Assembly: GCA_017556585.1 (NCBI GenBank)
Contig: JAFYMP010000055.1
Coordinates: forward strand, 1-36,901
Source of the DNA: Bacteroidaceae bacterium
Lineage (GTDB): Bacteria; Bacteroidota; Bacteroidia; Bacteroidales; Bacteroidaceae
Direction of reading: 5' to 3'
DNA length: 36,901 nt
Below are positions 18,426-36,901 of this stretch, in pieces (positions within the stretch are counted from its first letter, which is position 1; every line of letters begins with the position of its first letter). The translations under genes were made by a program, and so were the position numbers. A model generated the notes under the pieces. It searched no databases and was not told where the DNA came from. It saw nothing but the letters and a program-made list of their open reading frames with translations.

Positions 18426-18437
18426 ATATAATTGATA

Positions 18438-19778
18438 ATGCAGTTAGTTCTTTTATCCGGTGGTTCGGGATTAAGGCTTTGGCCGTTATCCAATAATACA
18501 CGTTCCAAACAGTTTCTGCCTCTTTTGAAGGCGGCTGATGGTTCTATGGAGTCTATGCTTCAGCGTGTAGTAAGGCAGGTAAAGGAGACCAATCTTGCAG
18601 AGAGTGTTACTATTGCTACCAGCAAGACTCAGCGTGATAATATTATTAATCAGCTGGGCGATAATGTTGATGTGGTGGCAGAACCGGAGAGAAGAGATAC
18701 TTTCCCGGCTATAGCACTTGCGGTTTCTTATCTTTCTTTACAAAAGGGTTGTCCCGACAGCGAAGTGGTGGTGATTATGCCCTGCGATCCATATACAGAG
18801 AACGATTTTTTCCGTTCCATAGGTAAGATGGTGCAGGCAGTGGAAGAGGATGTGGCCGATTTGGTGCTGATGGGTATTGAACCCAAGTATCCGGCATCTA
18901 AATATGGCTATATAGTTCCGCAAGAGGGTGGCAATGATGCTGTCAAAATGGTTAGCTGTTTTGTGGAAAAACCGGATAGAGCAAAGGCTGAAGAACTTTT
19001 GGCGAAGGGTGCAATGTGGAATAGTGGCGTGTTTGCTTTCAGACTGGGCTATTTGCGCAGTATAGTAAGTAAGTACATCACTGCCAATTCATATCAAGAA
19101 GTAGTAGCACAGTATGGCTCGTTCCCAAAGATAAGCTTTGACTACGAAGTGGTAGAAAAAGCATTGTCTATTGCAGTGGTTCCGTTTGGTGGTCAGTGGA
19201 AAGACCTGGGTACCTGGAATACTTTGTCGGAAGAGATTGCAGAAGATTATATTGGTAATGTTACCTGTGGCGATAATAATAGTAATTCCATTGTAGTTAA
19301 TGAGTTAGGTTTGCCTATATTCTGCGACGGACTGAATAATATGGTGGTGGCTTGTAGCCCCGACGGTATTTTGGTTTGTGGCAAGGATTATTCTGAGGGC
19401 ATTAAAGATAAGGTGTCCAAACTGGCTGACCGACCCATGTATGAGGAGCGCAGATGGGGTTCCTATAAGGTTATGGGTACCAAACGTTATGGTGATGGTT
19501 ACAAATCATTGACCAAAGAACTCATTCTTAGACCGGGATGCAGTATAAGTTATCAGAGACATAAGTTACGTGATGAAGTGTGGACTTTTGTGGATGGTGA
19601 TGGTGTTCTGGCTTTGGACGGAGAGATTGTAAAGGTGAAACGTGGCGATGTGGTTCATATTAAGAGTGGACAGATGCACGCTGTTAAGGCTGTTTCGCAG
19701 TTGCAGATTATTGAGGTTCAGATGGGTACTCTTTTGGAAGAGGATGATATAGAGCGTTTCCCTTGGGATTGGGAATAA
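18438..19778 (+). CDS. manC: Mannose-1-phosphate guanylyltransferase with C-terminal cupin
   Basis: 446 residues from the ATG at 18438; a TTG two codons earlier is less likely. The nucleotidyltransferase signature GGSGLRLWPLS is at residues 8-18, with KQFLPL next, VVIMPCDPY and FVEKPDRAKAEELLAKGAMW mid-protein. The C-terminal 110 residues are a mannose-6-phosphate-isomerase type-II cupin (ERRWGSYKVM, ISYQRHKLRDEVWTFVDGDG, HIKSGQMHAVKA). It makes GDP-mannose from GTP and mannose-1-phosphate; the cupin half often adds isomerase activity. GDP-mannose is a precursor for mannose and fucose in surface polysaccharides. A large hairpin and structured repeats follow the stop. Confidence 0.93.
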   Translation: MQLVLLSGGSGLRLWPLSNNTRSKQFLPLLKAADGSMESMLQRVVRQVKETNLAESVTIATSKTQRDNIINQLGDNVDVVAEPERRDTFPAIALAVSYLSLQKGCPDSEVVVIMPCDPYTENDFFRSIGKMVQAVEEDVADLVLMGIEPKYPASKYGYIVPQEGGNDAVKMVSCFVEKPDRAKAEELLAKGAMWNSGVFAFRLGYLRSIVSKYITANSYQEVVAQYGSFPKISFDYEVVEKALSIAVVPFGGQWKDLGTWNTLSEEIAEDYIGNVTCGDNNSNSIVVNELGLPIFCDGLNNMVVACSPDGILVCGKDYSEGIKDKVSKLADRPMYEERRWGSYKVMGTKRYGDGYKSLTKELILRPGCSISYQRHKLRDEVWTFVDGDGVLALDGEIVKVKRGDVVHIKSGQMHAVKAVSQLQIIEVQMGTLLEEDDIERFPWDWE

Positions 19779-19786
19779 AGATATAT

Positions 19787-19851
19787 AGTCCTATTATGTT
19801 AAAATGGGGTGTACCGGTGGTACATCCCATTTTTGTAAACATAATAGGACT
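19787..19851. repeat. Large near-perfect inverted repeat after manC
   Basis: The outer arms agtcctattatgtt (19787-19800) and aacataataggact (19838-19851) are exact reverse complements. They continue into aaaatggggtgtacc / ggtacatcccatttt, with one G-T pair, a 3-nt ggt loop and a 3-base bulge. The stem is 29 bp in total. It lies between the convergent manC and DUF1573 genes and may stop transcription, but there is no T run after it. Confidence 0.7.
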
Positions 19852-19855
19852 ATTA

Positions 19856-20083
19856 GACCTTATCTATATTGGCATCCTCCGGATGCGTCCTTCGGACCAA
19901 TTAATCGTTTATGACATAAGGACAATTAGACCTTATCTATATTGGTTTGCTCCGCAAACGTCCTTCGGACCAATTAATTGTTTATGACATAAGGGCCATT
20001 TTGACCTTATCTATTTTATCACGCTCCGCGTGAGCCCTACGGGCCAATTAATCGTTTATGACATAAGGACTATATAGACCTTA
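19856..20083. repeat. Three tandem 73-74 bp structured repeat units with covarying hairpins, plus a partial fourth
   Basis: The units start at 19856, 19929 and 20003 with gaccttatct; a partial copy starts at 20077 and runs to the stop codon of the DUF1573 gene. Each unit has the outer pair ccttat/ataagg, then attgg/ccaat in units 1 and 2, then two adjacent hairpins. Hairpin A is gcatcc-tcc-ggatgc (19872-19886), gtttgc-tcc-gcaaac (19945-19959) and tcacgc-tcc-gcgtga (20019-20033). Hairpin B is gtcc-ttc-ggac (19887-19897 and 19960-19970) and gccc-tac-gggc (20034-20044). The stems change with full compensation while the loops stay constant or nearly so. On the minus strand all six loops read C-GNA-G. 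Confidence 0.8.
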
Positions 20084-21160
20084 TTATTTGGATTGGAGTT
20101 TGATGCGGATTTCGCGGAAGGGACGTACGGGATCGTTTGATGTGATATTGACAGACGCCATAACGGTTTTGCCCGATTCTTCGGGAGCAGGTAGTGTTAC
20201 CGTTACTAAATGGTCTTCTCCGGGTTTTATCACAGTTCCGTTGTTAAGGTTGCAGACGCATCTGTTTAGGGTTTCTACATCTCTTATAATGAGGTCAGCT
20301 TTTCCGGTGTTCTCTATAAGAAATGTGCCTCTGGCTACTCTTCCTGCAGGTTTTATTCCTAAATCCACCAGCGAAGGCTCTATCCTGATAGATGGTGTCG
20401 GTTCTTCGCTGTTTTCATCGAACTGATCTGTGCAGATTGATGTTACTATGATGGGGTTCTTGCTGCGAACTTCGTTTGAATAGATCCATAGTGTATCGCG
20501 TAATGTTCCATAGTATTCTCCTGTTGCAGGTATGGTGTAGGTTACATTTACACTCTCTACCTCCTGTGGCTTGACGGCTGTAGGGGCCTCTATGGTGAGC
20601 AGGCTCTTTTCGTTACTGTTCACTACTCGAATTTTAGCGATTTCTGTTCCTATGTTTGCAAGTATTATGCTTTTGCTTTCTGATTTACCTTGTTCTATAA
20701 AACCGAAATTGCTCTGCAGGGTTTCTGTTCTGATAGGTTCTGCCAATGCTCTGGGGTATCGCTCTTCCAGTCCTAATGGAGTGGGGATGACATCGGCCAT
20801 AAGCAGTAATCGGTCTATGCTTCTGCCCTGATTGGTGAATACTTCCAGTTCACGTATTACTTCTCCTTCTGTTCCGGCGGGATTGAAGCTTACTGTCAGT
20901 TCGCCTGTCTCTCCGGGTGCTATGGATTCTGTTGAATAGGATACTGTGGTGCAACCGCAACTGGTTAGTATGTTGCTGATGGTTGCATTCTGGTTGGAAG
21001 TGTTCATAAAGTAGAAGGTATGTTTTACTATACCGTCTTTTTCTTCTATTTTCCCAAAGTTGTGTTCGTTGCTGTCAAACTGAATAGGCGATTTTGGTGC
21101 CTGTGCTGCCAATGTTATTGTGATGATGGCTGCTATTATTGATATTGTTAATCTCTTCAT
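20084..21160 (-). CDS. Exported DUF1573 repeat protein
   Basis: 358 residues with a signal peptide (MKRLTISIIAAIITITLAAQ). The first domain (about 25-120) has the DUF1573 hallmark: FDSNEHNFGKIEEKDGIVKH, FYFMNTSNQNATI and the cysteine motif TSCGCTTVSY, followed by IAPGETGELTVSFNPAG. Two further Ig-like (ASH/MSP-type) beta domains follow, the last with NTGKADLIIRDVETLNRCVC. These proteins are abundant in Bacteroidetes and are thought to be periplasmic or surface proteins of unknown function. The start overlaps the MBL gene stop by 4 bp, so it is the third gene of an rsmG operon. Its stop codon abuts the structured repeat array. Confidence 0.85.
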   Translation of the reverse strand: MKRLTISIIAAIITITLAAQAPKSPIQFDSNEHNFGKIEEKDGIVKHTFYFMNTSNQNATISNILTSCGCTTVSYSTESIAPGETGELTVSFNPAGTEGEVIRELEVFTNQGRSIDRLLLMADVIPTPLGLEERYPRALAEPIRTETLQSNFGFIEQGKSESKSIILANIGTEIAKIRVVNSNEKSLLTIEAPTAVKPQEVESVNVTYTIPATGEYYGTLRDTLWIYSNEVRSKNPIIVTSICTDQFDENSEEPTPSIRIEPSLVDLGIKPAGRVARGTFLIENTGKADLIIRDVETLNRCVCNLNNGTVIKPGEDHLVTVTLPAPEESGKTVMASVNITSNDPVRPFREIRIKLQSK

Positions 21161-22904: not shown

Positions 22905-22907
22905 TTG

Positions 22908-22995
22908 CGGAAAGAGTGGGATTCAAACCCACGGTACGGGAGACCCGTACGCCGGATTTCGAGTCCGGTCCATTCGATCACTCTGGCATCTTTCC
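22908..22995 (-). tRNA. tRNA-Ser (anticodon CGA)
   Basis: 88 nt on the minus strand. The acceptor arms GGAAAGA and TCTTTCC pair, with discriminator G. The anticodon stem-loop is CCGGA-CTCGAAA-TCCGG, giving anticodon CGA, which reads UCG serine codons. There is a long variable arm (GTACGGG..CCCGTAC), as expected for tRNA-Ser, and the T-arm GTGGG-TTTGAAT-CCCAC. CCA is not encoded. The promoter is at 23008-23037 and the terminator at 22846-22904. Confidence 0.95.
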
Positions 22996-29181: not shown

Positions 29182-29466
29182 ATGAACAATAAAGAGTTTC
29201 TGAACAAGCTGTCCAAAAGATGCGGTATTACTGCCGATGAGGCGCAGGTTTTATCGCAAGGTCTGCTGGATGTTATGCAAAAGCAGTGGCAGGAGGGCGA
29301 TACTATCAGTCTGTCAGGTTTTGGTGTTTTTGAGGTTCGTAAGAAGAACGAAAGAATCTCTGTAAACCCTTCTACAGGGGTACGTATGCTTATTCCACCA
29401 AAATTGGCTCTTACTTTTAAGCCGGGATTAATGTTGAAGGATAAACTTAACAGTAAGGAACTATGA
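29182..29466 (+). CDS. HU-family DNA-binding protein
   Basis: 94 residues with the HU/IHF fold pattern: an N-terminal helical pair (KEFLNKLSKRCGITADEAQV), the turn LSGFGVFEVRKKNERISVNP and the hairpin-arm region TGVRMLIPPKLALTFKPG. Relative to classical HU, the arm tip lacks the canonical RNP.TG and instead reads VNPSTG. It should bind DNA as a dimer, possibly as a heterodimer with the HU domain of the next protein. The stop overlaps that gene's start by 4 bp, so the two are made together. Confidence 0.88.
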   Translation: MNNKEFLNKLSKRCGITADEAQVLSQGLLDVMQKQWQEGDTISLSGFGVFEVRKKNERISVNPSTGVRMLIPPKLALTFKPGLMLKDKLNSKEL

Positions 29467-31142
29467 ATGCAAAGCTGAATCAGAAACAGTTATCTGAAAT
29501 ATTTTATCAGATAAACGGTAAGAGCAGACAGAAATCTGAACTGTTTGTAAAGAGTTTCTTTGAGATTATTGAAGAGGAACTTCTTAAAGGTGAGCAAGTT
29601 AAGGTTAAGGGGCTTGGCGTGTTTAAGACTGTAAAGGTAGAGGAACGCGAGAGTGTAAATGTAAATACCGGTGAGCGTATTAAGATAGATGGTTACGTAA
29701 AGATTTCATTTACTCCCGATGCTGCTCTTAAAGAGACTATAAATAAGCCTTTTGCTGCTTTTGAAACAATGGTTCTGTCTGATTTTCAGGCAGAAATGAT
29801 TTCAAAATCTCTGGAAGAAACTGTAGGAGATCAGGTTGAGGATCAAGATTTGGAAGATGCTGTTTCTGTTCCGGAAGCTATAGAGGAAGAGAATGTAGAG
29901 ATTCAAGAGTCGGAAGAACTTGTTGCGGAACCGGAAGCACCAGCAGTAGAACCAGAGCCTGAAGAAAAGGTTGTAGAGGTAATTACTGAGCCGGAAACTG
30001 AAGAGGTTGAAGAAGAGCCTGTTATAGAGGAGGAGATTATAGAAGAAGAGCAGGTGGAACCTGAAATAAAAGAGGAGAAACCTGAAGCAGAGGTAGTAGA
30101 AGAGCCTGTAGCAGAACCTGAATCAGAGCAAGAACCTGAATTAGAGCAGGAACCAGAACCAGAGCAAGAACCTGAGTCTGAAACTGAAGAGATTGTAGAG
30201 CAGGAAGCTGAAGTTGTTGAAGAAGAACCTGTAGTAGAGGAAAAGGTTATAGAAGAAGAGCAATTAGAGGCTGAAACAGAAGCAGAGGTTGTGGCTGAAT
30301 CTGCAGAAGAACAGGAAATGGTAAAAGAACCTGAAGCAGAGGTTGTTGAAGAACCTGTAGTAGAACCAGAACCTGTAGTAGAACCAGAACCTGTTGTTGA
30401 ACCAGAACCTGTTGTTGAACCAGAACCTGTTGTTGAACCAGAACCTGTTGTTGAACAGGAACCAATAGCAGAACCTGAATCAGTTGAAGAAACTACTGCA
30501 AAGATAGAGGGTGAAGTAGTTGGAGATAAGCAAATTAAAGGAAAGAAAAAACATATAGGATTAAGAGCTGTAATAGTATTGGCATCTGTAATTCTGACGT
30601 TGTTATTACTTGTCTATATGTTATGGCCTGTTATCTTCCGTCAGTACATAAAGCATCAGTACAAGACTTCACGTAATGAAGTTGTTACAGAGCAAGTTAT
30701 TACACCGGAATCTGTAGTACCAGAGCAACAGAACGTATTAGAGGGTTCTGCAGACAACAGTACTGAAACACCAGTTGAAACTACTGTTGCTACTCCTGTA
30801 CCGGCAAAACCTGTTTCTACGCTTTCAGAAACAAAACCTGTAGTAGAGACAAAACCTGCTGCAGCGTCTAACACTATTGTTAAACAGAGTATTAAGTTGG
30901 TTGCAGAAGACGAGAACAGAGATTTGGCAGATATTACAGCAGACGATACGGATAACTATGAAATTGTAGGATTGCTGGCAGAACATACTTTGAAGAAGGA
31001 TGAGATTCTGACAATTTTATCGCAAAAGTATTATGGTACCAAAAAACTGTGGCCATATATTGCAAAATATAATAACTTTGACGATTTCAATAAGTTACGT
31101 CCGGGAATGAAGATACTTATTCCAAAGTTGGAAAATAAGTAA
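29463..31142 (+). CDS. Membrane protein with N-terminal HU domain and C-terminal LysM domain
   Basis: 559 residues in four parts. Residues 1-110 are an HU-like DNA-binding domain (SEIFYQINGKSRQKSELFVK, then VKGLGVFKTV and VNVNTGERI). Residues 115-355 are a very acidic Glu/Pro/Val linker with six tandem VVEPEP-like hexapeptides (30357-30464). A Lys-rich stop precedes one membrane helix at about 367-389 (LRAVIVLASVILTLLLLVYM). The rest is periplasmic, with a LysM-like peptidoglycan-binding domain at about 508-556 (HTLKKDEILTILSQKYYGTK, then LRPGMKILIP). By the positive-inside signal the HU part is cytoplasmic, so the protein could link the nucleoid to the cell wall. It is coupled by a 4-bp overlap to the HU gene before it. 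Confidence 0.85.
   Translation: MNAKLNQKQLSEIFYQINGKSRQKSELFVKSFFEIIEEELLKGEQVKVKGLGVFKTVKVEERESVNVNTGERIKIDGYVKISFTPDAALKETINKPFAAFETMVLSDFQAEMISKSLEETVGDQVEDQDLEDAVSVPEAIEEENVEIQESEELVAEPEAPAVEPEPEEKVVEVITEPETEEVEEEPVIEEEIIEEEQVEPEIKEEKPEAEVVEEPVAEPESEQEPELEQEPEPEQEPESETEEIVEQEAEVVEEEPVVEEKVIEEEQLEAETEAEVVAESAEEQEMVKEPEAEVVEEPVVEPEPVVEPEPVVEPEPVVEPEPVVEPEPVVEQEPIAEPESVEETTAKIEGEVVGDKQIKGKKKHIGLRAVIVLASVILTLLLLVYMLWPVIFRQYIKHQYKTSRNEVVTEQVITPESVVPEQQNVLEGSADNSTETPVETTVATPVPAKPVSTLSETKPVVETKPAAASNTIVKQSIKLVAEDENRDLADITADDTDNYEIVGLLAEHTLKKDEILTILSQKYYGTKKLWPYIAKYNNFDDFNKLRPGMKILIPKLENK
30357..30464 (+). repeat. Six tandem 18-bp units inside the HU-LysM gene
   Basis: Units of gttgttgaaccagaacct, or the close variant gtagtagaaccagaacct, encode VVEPEP. 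Units 3-5 are identical at the DNA level, which points to recent slippage; copy number may vary between strains without changing the reading frame. Confidence 0.85.
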
Positions 31143-35242: not shown

Positions 35243-36277
35243 ATGTTTAGATTTGCACATCCAGAATATCTATATTTGCTGTTGGTTCTGCCATTATTGG
35301 TGGTACTGCATATTGTTTCCGGAATTATCAGGAACAGACGTCTGAAGAGTTATGGCGATAAAGAACTTGTAGAGATTTTAATGCCTAATCATTCTCTGTT
35401 CAGACAGAACCTGAAATTCTGGCTATTGTTCTGTGTCTTTGGATTAAGTTGTTTTGTTATAGCAAGGCCGCAGTTTGGTTCAAAGCAGGAAACTGTTACA
35501 AGAACCGGTATTGAAACTATTATTGCTATGGATATTTCCAATTCTATGTTGGCTGATGATGTTCAACCCAGCAGATTGGAGAAATCAAAGCGTATTGTTT
35601 CTAATTTAGTGGATCAGTTCCAGGACGATAAGGTGGGGCTTATACTGTTTGCCGGCGATGCATACGTGCAGTTACCTATTACAAATGACTATATATCGGC
35701 AAAGGTGTTTTTAAATAGTATAACTCCTTCATTGATAGCTCGTCAGGGTACTAATATTAAAGATGCTGTAGATTTGGCTACACGTAGTTTTACACCTAAT
35801 GATGGAGTGGGTAAGGCTATTATTCTTATTACAGATGGTGAAAACCACGAAGCGGGTGCTGTAGAAGCTGTTAAAGCGGCTGCAGACAAAGGCTATCTGG
35901 TTTATGTGTTGGGTGTGGGTTCTCCTTCCGGTTCTCCAATACCCGGTGAAAGAGCAAATGAGTTCAGAAAAGATAAAGATGGTAATGTGGTAGTTACCAA
36001 ACTTAACGAAGCTATGTGCAGGGAATTGGCTGCTGCGGGTAATGGCGCATATTTCTATGTGGATAATACAAATGCAGCAGAAAAGGCTCTTAAACAAGAA
36101 CTTGATAAATTGGCAAAAAGCGATGTGGAGACTACAGTATATACAGATTTTGATGAGCAGTTCCAGATAGTTGCCTGGATGGCATTGATTCTGCTCTTAT
36201 TGGAATTGTTTATATCTGAAGGTAAGAATGCCAAATGGAAGAATGTGAAACTGTTCAATATTGAGAAAGAGAAATGA
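35243..36277 (+). CDS. batB: Aerotolerance protein BatB (VWA domain)
   Basis: 344 residues from the ATG at 35243; the frame also has a GTG two codons upstream, which I consider less likely. Membrane helices are at about 9-27 and 58-75, the VWA domain has MIDAS DISNS (97-101) with LITDGENHEAGAVEA, and there is a C-terminal helix near 312. The start FRFAHPEYLYLLLVLPLLVV is typical of BatB. It probably pairs with BatA. The stop overlaps the batC start by 4 bp. Confidence 0.93.
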   Translation: MFRFAHPEYLYLLLVLPLLVVLHIVSGIIRNRRLKSYGDKELVEILMPNHSLFRQNLKFWLLFCVFGLSCFVIARPQFGSKQETVTRTGIETIIAMDISNSMLADDVQPSRLEKSKRIVSNLVDQFQDDKVGLILFAGDAYVQLPITNDYISAKVFLNSITPSLIARQGTNIKDAVDLATRSFTPNDGVGKAIILITDGENHEAGAVEAVKAAADKGYLVYVLGVGSPSGSPIPGERANEFRKDKDGNVVVTKLNEAMCRELAAAGNGAYFYVDNTNAAEKALKQELDKLAKSDVETTVYTDFDEQFQIVAWMALILLLLELFISEGKNAKWKNVKLFNIEKEK

Positions 36278-36901
36278 AACGATATATTCTTATAGTATCT
36301 ATGCTTTTACTTTCGGTATCGTTGTTCGCTCAACGTACTGATAGAGAGTATGTTCGTAAGGGCAATAAGCTATACGAAGATAGTCTGTATATTAAAGCAG
36401 AAGAGAATTATCTAAAGGCTATAGATTTAAATTCATCATCGGCAGAGGCTATGTTTAATTTGGGTAATGCCTATATTGCTCAACAGAAAGGACAAGAGGC
36501 ATTAAAGCAATTTCAGAATGCTGCAACTCTGTTTGAGGTGGAGAAAGAGCGTTTAATGCACGATGAAAAAGCAACCGAAAAAGAGCTGAATGATTGTAAA
36601 GAGAATTTAGCAAAGACATATCATAATGCGGGTGTTCTGTTTCATAGTAACAGTGATTATCAGAATGCTATAGCTGCATATAAAGAGGCTCTGCGCAATA
36701 ATCCTGCCGATCATGAGACCAGATATAACCTTATTCATGCTTTGGAACAGTTGAAACAACAGCAGGAACAACAGCAGAATGAGGAGAATCAGCAGGAGAA
36801 TCAGGAGCAGCAACAGGAGCAGCAACAGGAGCAACAGCAACAGGAGCAGCAGAATGAGAATGAGCAACAAAATGAGCAGCAGCAACAACAGCAACAACAG
36901 C
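36274..36901 (+). CDS. batC: Aerotolerance protein BatC, N-terminal part (TPR protein, cut by window edge)
   Basis: 209 complete codons are present, with no stop in the window. A signal peptide (MKRYILIVSMLLLSVSLFAQ) is followed by TPR-like repeats (EYVRKGNKLYEDSLYIKAEE, AMFNLGNAYIAQQKGQEALK, and later YHNAGVLFHSNSDYQNAIAA). From about residue 160 it becomes a Gln/Glu/Asn-rich low-complexity tail encoded by CAG/CAA/GAG/AAT codons. This is the normal design of BatC, a periplasmic TPR protein. The start overlaps batB by 4 bp (ATGA). Confidence 0.9.
   Translation, partial: MKRYILIVSMLLLSVSLFAQRTDREYVRKGNKLYEDSLYIKAEENYLKAIDLNSSSAEAMFNLGNAYIAQQKGQEALKQFQNAATLFEVEKERLMHDEKATEKELNDCKENLAKTYHNAGVLFHSNSDYQNAIAAYKEALRNNPADHETRYNLIHALEQLKQQQEQQQNEENQQENQEQQQEQQQEQQQQEQQNENEQQNEQQQQQQQQ

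Follow-up and report, generated by a model that had tools for sequence, protein, structure and literature searches.

Three tandem units between convergent genes

The window, the whole stretch of 36,901 nucleotides that was analyzed, carries three tandem units in the 305-bp gap separating two convergent genes. They raise the question of how adjacent repeats can come to differ in the stems of their hairpins with each stem staying paired. The units start at 19846, 19919, and 19993 (spacing of 73 and 74), units 2 and 3 are 89% and 78% identical to unit 1, respectively, and Tandem Repeats Finder scored the array at 313 with a period of 73 and 3.4 copies. The array lies on contig C82 of the source genome (G000; 2.09 Mb, 82.8% complete).

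Upstream of the array, on the plus strand, is a gene (18432–19778) whose domain matches (NTP_transferase and MannoseP_isomer) identify a ManC-like mannose-1-phosphate guanylyltransferase. At the 3′ end of this gene, a palindromic terminator-like hairpin occupies 19785–19853; its arms (19785–19800 and 19838–19853) are 100% complementary and its inner stem, AAAATGGGGTGTACC / GGTACATCCCATTTT, contains one mismatch. It has the look of an intrinsic terminator for the guanylyltransferase gene and is the putative target palindrome of the locus. The convergent gene on the minus strand (20084–21160) encodes, according to its domain matches, a protein with a DUF1573/HYDIN-type Ig-like domain.

Between the palindrome and the convergent gene, direct repeats alternate with copies of an element of approximately 50 bp, for which we use the working name E, with the layout (CCTTAT)-CTATATTGG-hairpin A-hairpin B-CCAATTAATCnTnTAT. 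All parts were read on the plus strand. Direct repeat 1 (19839–19863), composed of the palindrome 3′ arm and a tail, ends with CCTTAT and is followed by element copy 1 (19864–19912; model match 19858–19913, E 4.6e-14) with hairpin A GCATCC-TCC-GGATGC (19872–19886) and hairpin B GTCC-TTC-GGAC (19887–19897). Direct repeat 2 (19914–19936) precedes copy 2 (19937–19985; E 5.9e-14), in which hairpin A is GTTTGC-TCC-GCAAAC (19945–19959) and hairpin B again GTCC-TTC-GGAC (19960–19970). After direct repeat 3 (19987–20010) comes copy 3 (20011–20059; E 3.5e-12), with TCACGC-TCC-GCGTGA (20019–20033) as hairpin A and GCCC-TAC-GGGC (20034–20044) as hairpin B. Direct repeat 4 (20061–20084) closes the array after the last element and shares one base with the stop codon of the convergent gene. 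Repeats 2, 3, and 4 all end with CCTTAT as well. Repeat 1 scored 34 against each of repeats 2 and 4, with a maximum of 28 in the cross-locus null; the diverged repeat 3 (score 19 versus repeat 1, p 0.0745) was not significant by itself and resembles repeats 2 and 4 by eye.

A preliminary description of the locus had reported three adjacent units of 73–74 bp with differing, fully compensated hairpin A stems, a compensated change in hairpin B from GTCC/GGAC to GCCC/GGGC, and C-GNA-G loops in all six hairpins of the minus strand. The sequence bears out each of these points: the hairpin B change is found in unit 3, and the six loops are GGA, GAA, GGA, GAA, GGA, and GTA, all closed by C-G.

Several other features of the window were recorded in passing. 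In-frame tandem repeats of 18 bp and 54 bp, EPVVEP-like and rich in Glu, Pro, and Val, lie at 30113–30486 inside the ORF 29463–31142, the N-terminus of which we take to be HU/IHF-like in appearance. At 36274–36900, an ORF that leaves the window end has a long Gln/Glu/Asn-rich C-terminal stretch built from short tandem repeats. A tRNA-Ser gene with the anticodon CGA occupies 22907–22995 on the minus strand.

Distribution of the element

DNA search combined with the covariance models R1 and R2 revealed at least 28 full copies of E, at least 17 in the source genome and at least 11 in a congeneric sister species (G003, draft genome, 77% complete); model R2 added at least five truncated copies. With the best 150 candidates per genome scored, R2 matches numbered at least 18 in G000 and at least 15 in G003, on nine and seven contigs, respectively, and the 28 full copies scored 56.7–81.7 bits. 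In the source genome, the window, C42, C67, and C46 carry three full copies each, and single full copies lie on C32, C23, C79, C71, and C47. Inspection by eye added further fragments on C42 and where contigs C79 and G003 C127 end. The copies inspected by eye lie between genes; E is thus short, extragenic, and dispersed.

Beyond these two carriers, no copy was found at E <= 0.001 in the 35 other genomes among the 37 examined from the genus, and an exact-pattern search of 392 further genomes from the order gave none; the right pattern for E reads ATTAATTGGNNCGNAN{0,1}GNNCN{4,5}CGNAG. A wider contig collection, searched with a pattern that sees only 4-base hairpin B loops, returned eight stretches, two of which were G003; in the six others, from other bacteria, the two hairpins were not both evident by eye. 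Viral contigs gave no exact-pattern match to E or to the related family described below, and blastn of the array against phages found none. Carriage by a plasmid was considered and rejected, the one partial blastn match of the array (E 0.7) being taken as chance. Titles and abstract openings of a largely open-access literature held no description of E.

Covariation and loops of the two hairpins

Across the aligned 28 full copies, 276 stem cells of hairpins A and B were scored, four gapped cells being set aside: 274 were Watson-Crick, one was G-U, and one was unpaired, which gives standard pairs in 99.6% of the cells. Both sides differed from the commonest pair in 64 of the 276 cells; the sole one-sided difference was the G-U of G003 C168, and the sole unpaired cell belongs to C67a. 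The covariation score of the 28 copies from two genomes was 0.590 versus 0.197 +/- 0.023 in 500 shuffles, none of which scored as high, and stayed at or below 0.114 with slid partners. These cells do not count as independent events because the copies are related. Seven hairpin A stem types were distinguished (GCATCC, GTTTGC, TCACGC, GCTTCC, GCACGC, ACATCC, and GTTGC); a truncated copy outside the alignment (C67, 11641) has GCTTCC opposite GGATGC, with one mismatch. The view that the fold rather than the stem sequence is kept is therefore supported by the covariation. The stems are neither fixed nor often mispaired elsewhere, yet each window stem recurs at other loci.

The loops had been described as constant. 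On the minus strand, this held for hairpin A, with GNA or GNNA in 28/28 copies (GGA 20, GTA 6, GCA 1, GTTA 1), and only in part for hairpin B, in which 21/28 loops are GNA (GAA 17, GGA 3, GTA 1) and the remaining seven are GAAT (6) or GGAT (1). In DNA, loops of the C-GNA-G and C-GNNA-G kinds have exceptional stability. The proposed exceptional stability of the hairpins agrees with these mostly GNA/GNNA loop types and not with the single-strand fold energies of the units, which are unexceptional (z from -1.55 to -2.26 for DNA and from -0.45 to -1.74 for RNA). The case for structure is covariation, not fold stability. A lower stem ATTG/CAAT beneath the hairpins was rejected as a structural feature, since 12 copies showed no compensated change in it and pairing in 81% of its cells, and the CCTTAT/ATAAGG stem drawn by folding programs in the window includes an ATAAGG that belongs to the locus-specific flank.

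Putative target palindromes and direct repeats

The loci follow one order: a palindrome (a terminator or a tRNA 3′ end), a CCTTAT-like hexamer, and E. At 13/15 loci the preceding palindrome exceeded the 95% point of random windows, and at 3/15 the 99% point, the two C46-type loci lying at the 95% point; the null consisted of random windows, E loci included, and not of the ends of genes, at which terminators are frequent. Terminators at L020 2870–2946, L022 1775–1840, and L044 1420–1500 are surrounded by unusually long palindromes, one of which, with a 27-bp stem and one mismatch, reaches into a tRNA-Cys gene at its 3′ end.

On the right side of most copies, the palindrome 3′ arm or the whole terminator appears again, usually with a terminal CCTTAT. 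In a comparison covering 26 of the 28 copies (C79, at a contig end, and G003 C115, in which the left flank is the terminator of a composite described below, were left out), 17/26 right flanks matched the left flank at the same locus (p < 0.02, 349 cross-locus comparisons). The direct repeat of the target is locus-specific, 15–55 nt long, and in 13 of the 17 cases stops no more than 2 nt from where CCTTAT ends. At 8/15 loci the last E was also followed by the repeat. For nine of the 26 right flanks no repeat reached p < 0.02; C71 and C47 had no flank repeat, and G003 C151 had a T-rich match alone (p 0.026).

At the tRNA-Thr locus, what has been copied is the tRNA 3′ end in reverse complement, a piece that lies downstream of the tRNA and forms the other palindrome arm. 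In species devoid of E, tRNA 3′ parts are likewise repeated downstream of tRNA-Thr, inverted or direct (L085, L098, L101, L104, L099, L102, L107), and some of these loci show tandem copies of tRNA parts with other hairpins in between.

An empty site at panD

The panD loci of G000 and G003 are orthologous, with 83% identity of the gene. The G003 locus has the same terminator and AATTAAATTCCTTAT|TTTTTC, CCTTAT included, but no E, and model R2 detected no E in this stretch. In G000 the locus reads terminator-E-terminator-E-terminator-E′T′E, with three terminator copies and three full E. At the panD loci of seven other species, R2 gave one weak match (L172, 16.8 bits, E 0.061); L173, L175, and L177 have in place of E a hairpin like those of the related family. 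Since E is missing from G003 panD and only one weak match occurred in the seven species, gain is favored over loss, and E was probably gained at G000 panD. The comparison, which concerns one clean empty site in incomplete draft genomes, also suggests that CCTTAT is older than the gain of E and that the extra terminators arrived with the E units. Four E loci of G003 match G000 carriers by their flanks (the window locus, tRNA-Thr, C46/C151, and C47/C168), and at all four copy numbers or stems differ.

Stem types and growth of the arrays

The stems of the window are not private to it. GTTTGC of unit 2 is also present at C42, C67, C32, and G003 C154; TCACGC of unit 3 at C42 (minus), G003 C105, and G003 C127; and GCATCC of unit 1 at C79 and G003 C105. 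The preliminary description had concluded that something changed both arms together. Because the three stems recur elsewhere as stem types, no such local change is needed, and the window units can be separate members of shared E subfamilies.

Arrays closed by a terminal repeat (the window, G003 C154, and G003 C168) have units that differ in hairpin A or B, a pattern that fits what would be expected from serial insertion with target duplication. Arrays without a terminal repeat include C46, with the hairpin A stem GTTGC in all three units, and C67a/b, with GCTTCC in both; they look like tandem duplications. The exceptions are C42 and the third E of C67, where stems differ without a terminal repeat and the last E stands behind an E′T′ composite. 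Such an E′-T′-E composite, in which a truncated E is followed by a terminator whose tip varies independently and then by a full E, was met six times in the two genomes (C42, C67, G003 C105 twice, G003 C115, and G003 C103; coordinates L019 828–900, L020 3142–3225, L179 2680–2900, L181 15–100, and L184 4406–4490). Its structure suggests that any sequence bounded by hairpin A on the left and hairpin B on the right may travel.

Dispersed copies, covariation, locus-specific repeats, and one empty orthologous site were observed directly for E. We consider it the best explanation, with a probability of roughly 60%, that the array is a short non-autonomous mobile DNA element inserted serially, usually with duplication of its target. 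The element would insert in one orientation, 3′ of a palindrome (an intrinsic terminator or a tRNA 3′ end) and right after a CCTTAT-like hexamer. In most tested copies the insertion would have duplicated 15–55 nt of the target, namely the palindrome 3′ arm or the whole hairpin with its tail, usually through CCTTAT. The repeats would arise by insertion, and different family members repeatedly entering one target would produce the order DR-E-DR-E-DR-E-DR, with stems differing per unit. Both hairpins would be recognized as single-stranded DNA, via their loops and helix shape, and would probably be exposed in this form during replication. Among the observations that run counter to serial insertion, the repeat length of 15–55 nt is unlike that left by a fixed-stagger transposase, and window repeats 2–4 resemble one another more than repeat 1. 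The latter likeness also fits duplication of a unit followed by replacement of its stem.

A stronger form of the insertion reading, which we regard as possible but doubtful, is that of a programmed process, in which a candidate enzyme would recognize the gene-end palindrome together with the 50-nt single-stranded double hairpin, join them at CCTTAT, and duplicate the arm. If true, it would mean CRISPR-like arrays of repeat units at terminators and tRNAs, with related families across one genus.

A less likely rival to serial insertion is that the repeats were born during replication without a dedicated enzyme. A polymerase stalled at the palindrome would switch template, spread E, and duplicate the flank, and switching inside a hairpin would also rewrite both arms together. 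The variable repeat length accords with this proposal, as do the C46 and C67a/b units, which with their identical stems look like plain tandem duplications, the inverted and direct copies of the tRNA-Thr 3′ end in congeners devoid of E, and the lack of association with Y1 transposases (see below). However, about eleven distinct loci with CCTTAT-like hexamers, one orientation relative to the palindrome, and conserved element ends are more site-specific than such a process would lead one to expect.

A related family in the genus

A second two-hairpin repeat, F2, with a TTTTTAGTTT lead, occurs in many species of the genus (L186–L215). It was sought with a pattern of a T-rich lead and a possible hairpin, TTTTTAGTTTN{4,14}AAACNG, which gave 54 exact matches in 24/37 congeneric genomes, the backwards control giving 13 matches in 10 genomes; the pattern is loose, and at least 5 of the 54 matches, including the sole one of G015, have no hairpin beyond the fixed letters. 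It found no match in the two E carriers. A stricter version had no match among 393 genomes of the order (the source genome included, no congeners).

Among 33 distinct F2 copies whose whole sequence was read, a second hairpin lies no more than 8 nt away in 25. Minus-strand loops are GNA or GNNA in 25/33 first and 20/25 second hairpins; among 160 random perfect hairpins taken as a control, such loops were found in 14 (plus strand) and 20 (minus strand). As the pattern fixes GTTT/AAAC, the free evidence resides in the inner stem and the loops. The latter include GTTA, GTCA, and GATA, tetraloops that fall outside the GNRA class of RNA. F2 often stands behind terminator-like hairpins and near tRNA genes (L205, L206, L210) or 5S rRNA (L213). 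By their design, and not by shared sequence, E and F2 may be grouped as one class of double-hairpin DNA repeats.

Candidate enzymes

A Y1/RAYT-type transposase had been suggested as the enzyme recognizing the hairpins, and E would then be an atypical REP moved by a RAYT (Y1 HUH) transposase, the gene for which either escaped assembly or has been lost. The Y1_Tnp/RAYT profile PF01797 was searched at E <= 0.001 in the 37 genomes of the genus and gave 42 matches in 23 of them; G000 and G003, 82.8% and 77% complete, had no match at this threshold, and the incompleteness of both leaves some room for a missed gene. Within up to 1.5 kb of 30 of the 42 Y1 loci, none of them from E carriers, neither the E nor the F2 pattern was found (0/30). 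The occurrence of F2 was independent of Y1 (15/23 against 9/14 genomes, Fisher p = 1; Spearman -0.05, p 0.77, for raw F2 matches). A GTAG or CGTC tag outside the stem and common to the E copies was not found: in the 28 copies GTAG was present in 8, GTGG in 2, and CGTC in 10, with CGTC located where hairpins A and B meet and most GTAG inside a TAC loop.

IS200/605 insertion, moreover, is not known to make a target duplication, which also speaks against such an origin. In its favor, IS200/605-type ends are single-strand hairpins beside a conserved flanking target, as outlined in the part of PMC6006769 drawn on here. Altogether, the suggestion of a Y1/RAYT transposase is unsupported, a RAYT-moved REP seems improbable, and the enzyme moving E, if there is one, is probably not of this type. 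E lacks the marks of a MITE of a DDE transposon, having no terminal inverted repeat besides a partial ATTG/CAAT and, in place of a short fixed target duplication, duplications that vary from 15 to 55 nt.

Selection on DNA or RNA

The preliminary description had held a role at the DNA level to be as plausible as one in RNA. We favor the DNA reading as the better one because of the GNA/GNNA loops, the F2 tetraloops that are not GNRA, and the scarcity of G-U (1/276 cells); the seven GAAT/GGAT loops of hairpin B are a less good fit to DNA-type loops. A structured RNA selected for its fold (an sRNA, a 3′ UTR stabilizer, or a bidirectional terminator) would agree with the strong covariation and with the location of E behind terminators where genes end, but it is unlikely in view of the same G-U count and F2 GNNA loops, of Rfam gathering scores giving no match in the window except the tRNA-Ser, and of the placement of E beyond a terminator-like palindrome in numbers that vary between sister species.

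Comparison with known systems

Small hairpin repeats occur in many bacteria, and the mechanism of their spreading has been proven for few. Group IIC introns insert directionally 3′ of terminator stems. E sits 3′ of such stems too, but its approximately 50 bp could not accommodate a group II intron ribozyme or a reverse transcriptase. CRISPR arrays grow by insertion of a unit and duplication of a border repeat of a few tens of nucleotides. The analogy is mechanical alone: the inserted unit is always E, and the repeat of an E array is locus-specific and taken from the host palindrome.

The hairpins of E, placed beside a conserved flanking target sequence, recall the IS200/IS605 ends, as far as these are set out in the portion of PMC6006769 used here; E differs in its long duplications, in two directly adjoining hairpins, and in the lack of a transposase found in its carriers. 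The BrickBuilt MITE of Porphyromonas gingivalis is likewise intergenic and found in Bacteroidales, and it contains an internal tandem array; it has small inverted-repeat ends and 23-nt units that lack spacers, and its abstract mentions no covarying double hairpin (PMC4596501).

Closer parallels are the double-hairpin and repetitive hairpin elements of mitochondria in Allomyces and sponges, which in the sections of PMC2800124 referred to here are small, single or paired, apparently mobile, and intergenic. E, with two tandem small hairpins and its mobility, belongs descriptively to this double-hairpin class, although it resides in a bacterial chromosome. Flanking duplications are present for E, whereas their lack is noted for the Allomyces elements; and in the sponge elements stems are kept and loops vary, whereas in E the loops are nearly constant and the stems vary (same sections of PMC2800124).

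The REP, BIME, and REPIN repeats are small extragenic hairpins, dispersed and sometimes clustered, with stems that vary between and within families, in the excerpted account of PMC3733652. E shares with them its small size, extragenic and dispersed location, occasional clustering, and differing stems. It departs from REP, as characterized in that account, in having no common GTAG/CGTC tag outside the stem, and it further differs in its two unlike hairpins, few loci, and long locus-specific direct repeats, as well as from REP/RAYT systems in that no Y1 gene was found in the two E carriers (82.8% and 77% complete).

From its sequence features, E is most like a REP or a double-hairpin element and fails the REP tag test; it is probably a small mobile hairpin repeat, REP-like or resembling the mitochondrial double-hairpin elements, and probably recognized as single-stranded DNA. 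It unites stems that covary, loops of the DNA type, a sharply defined target (palindrome, short tail, CCTTAT), long duplications, and a site that is empty in the orthologous locus, and a REP transposase has so far not been found. The array indicates how neighboring units of a tandem array can come to have different stems with no co-mutation of two arms, and E makes mobility directly testable in a small system.
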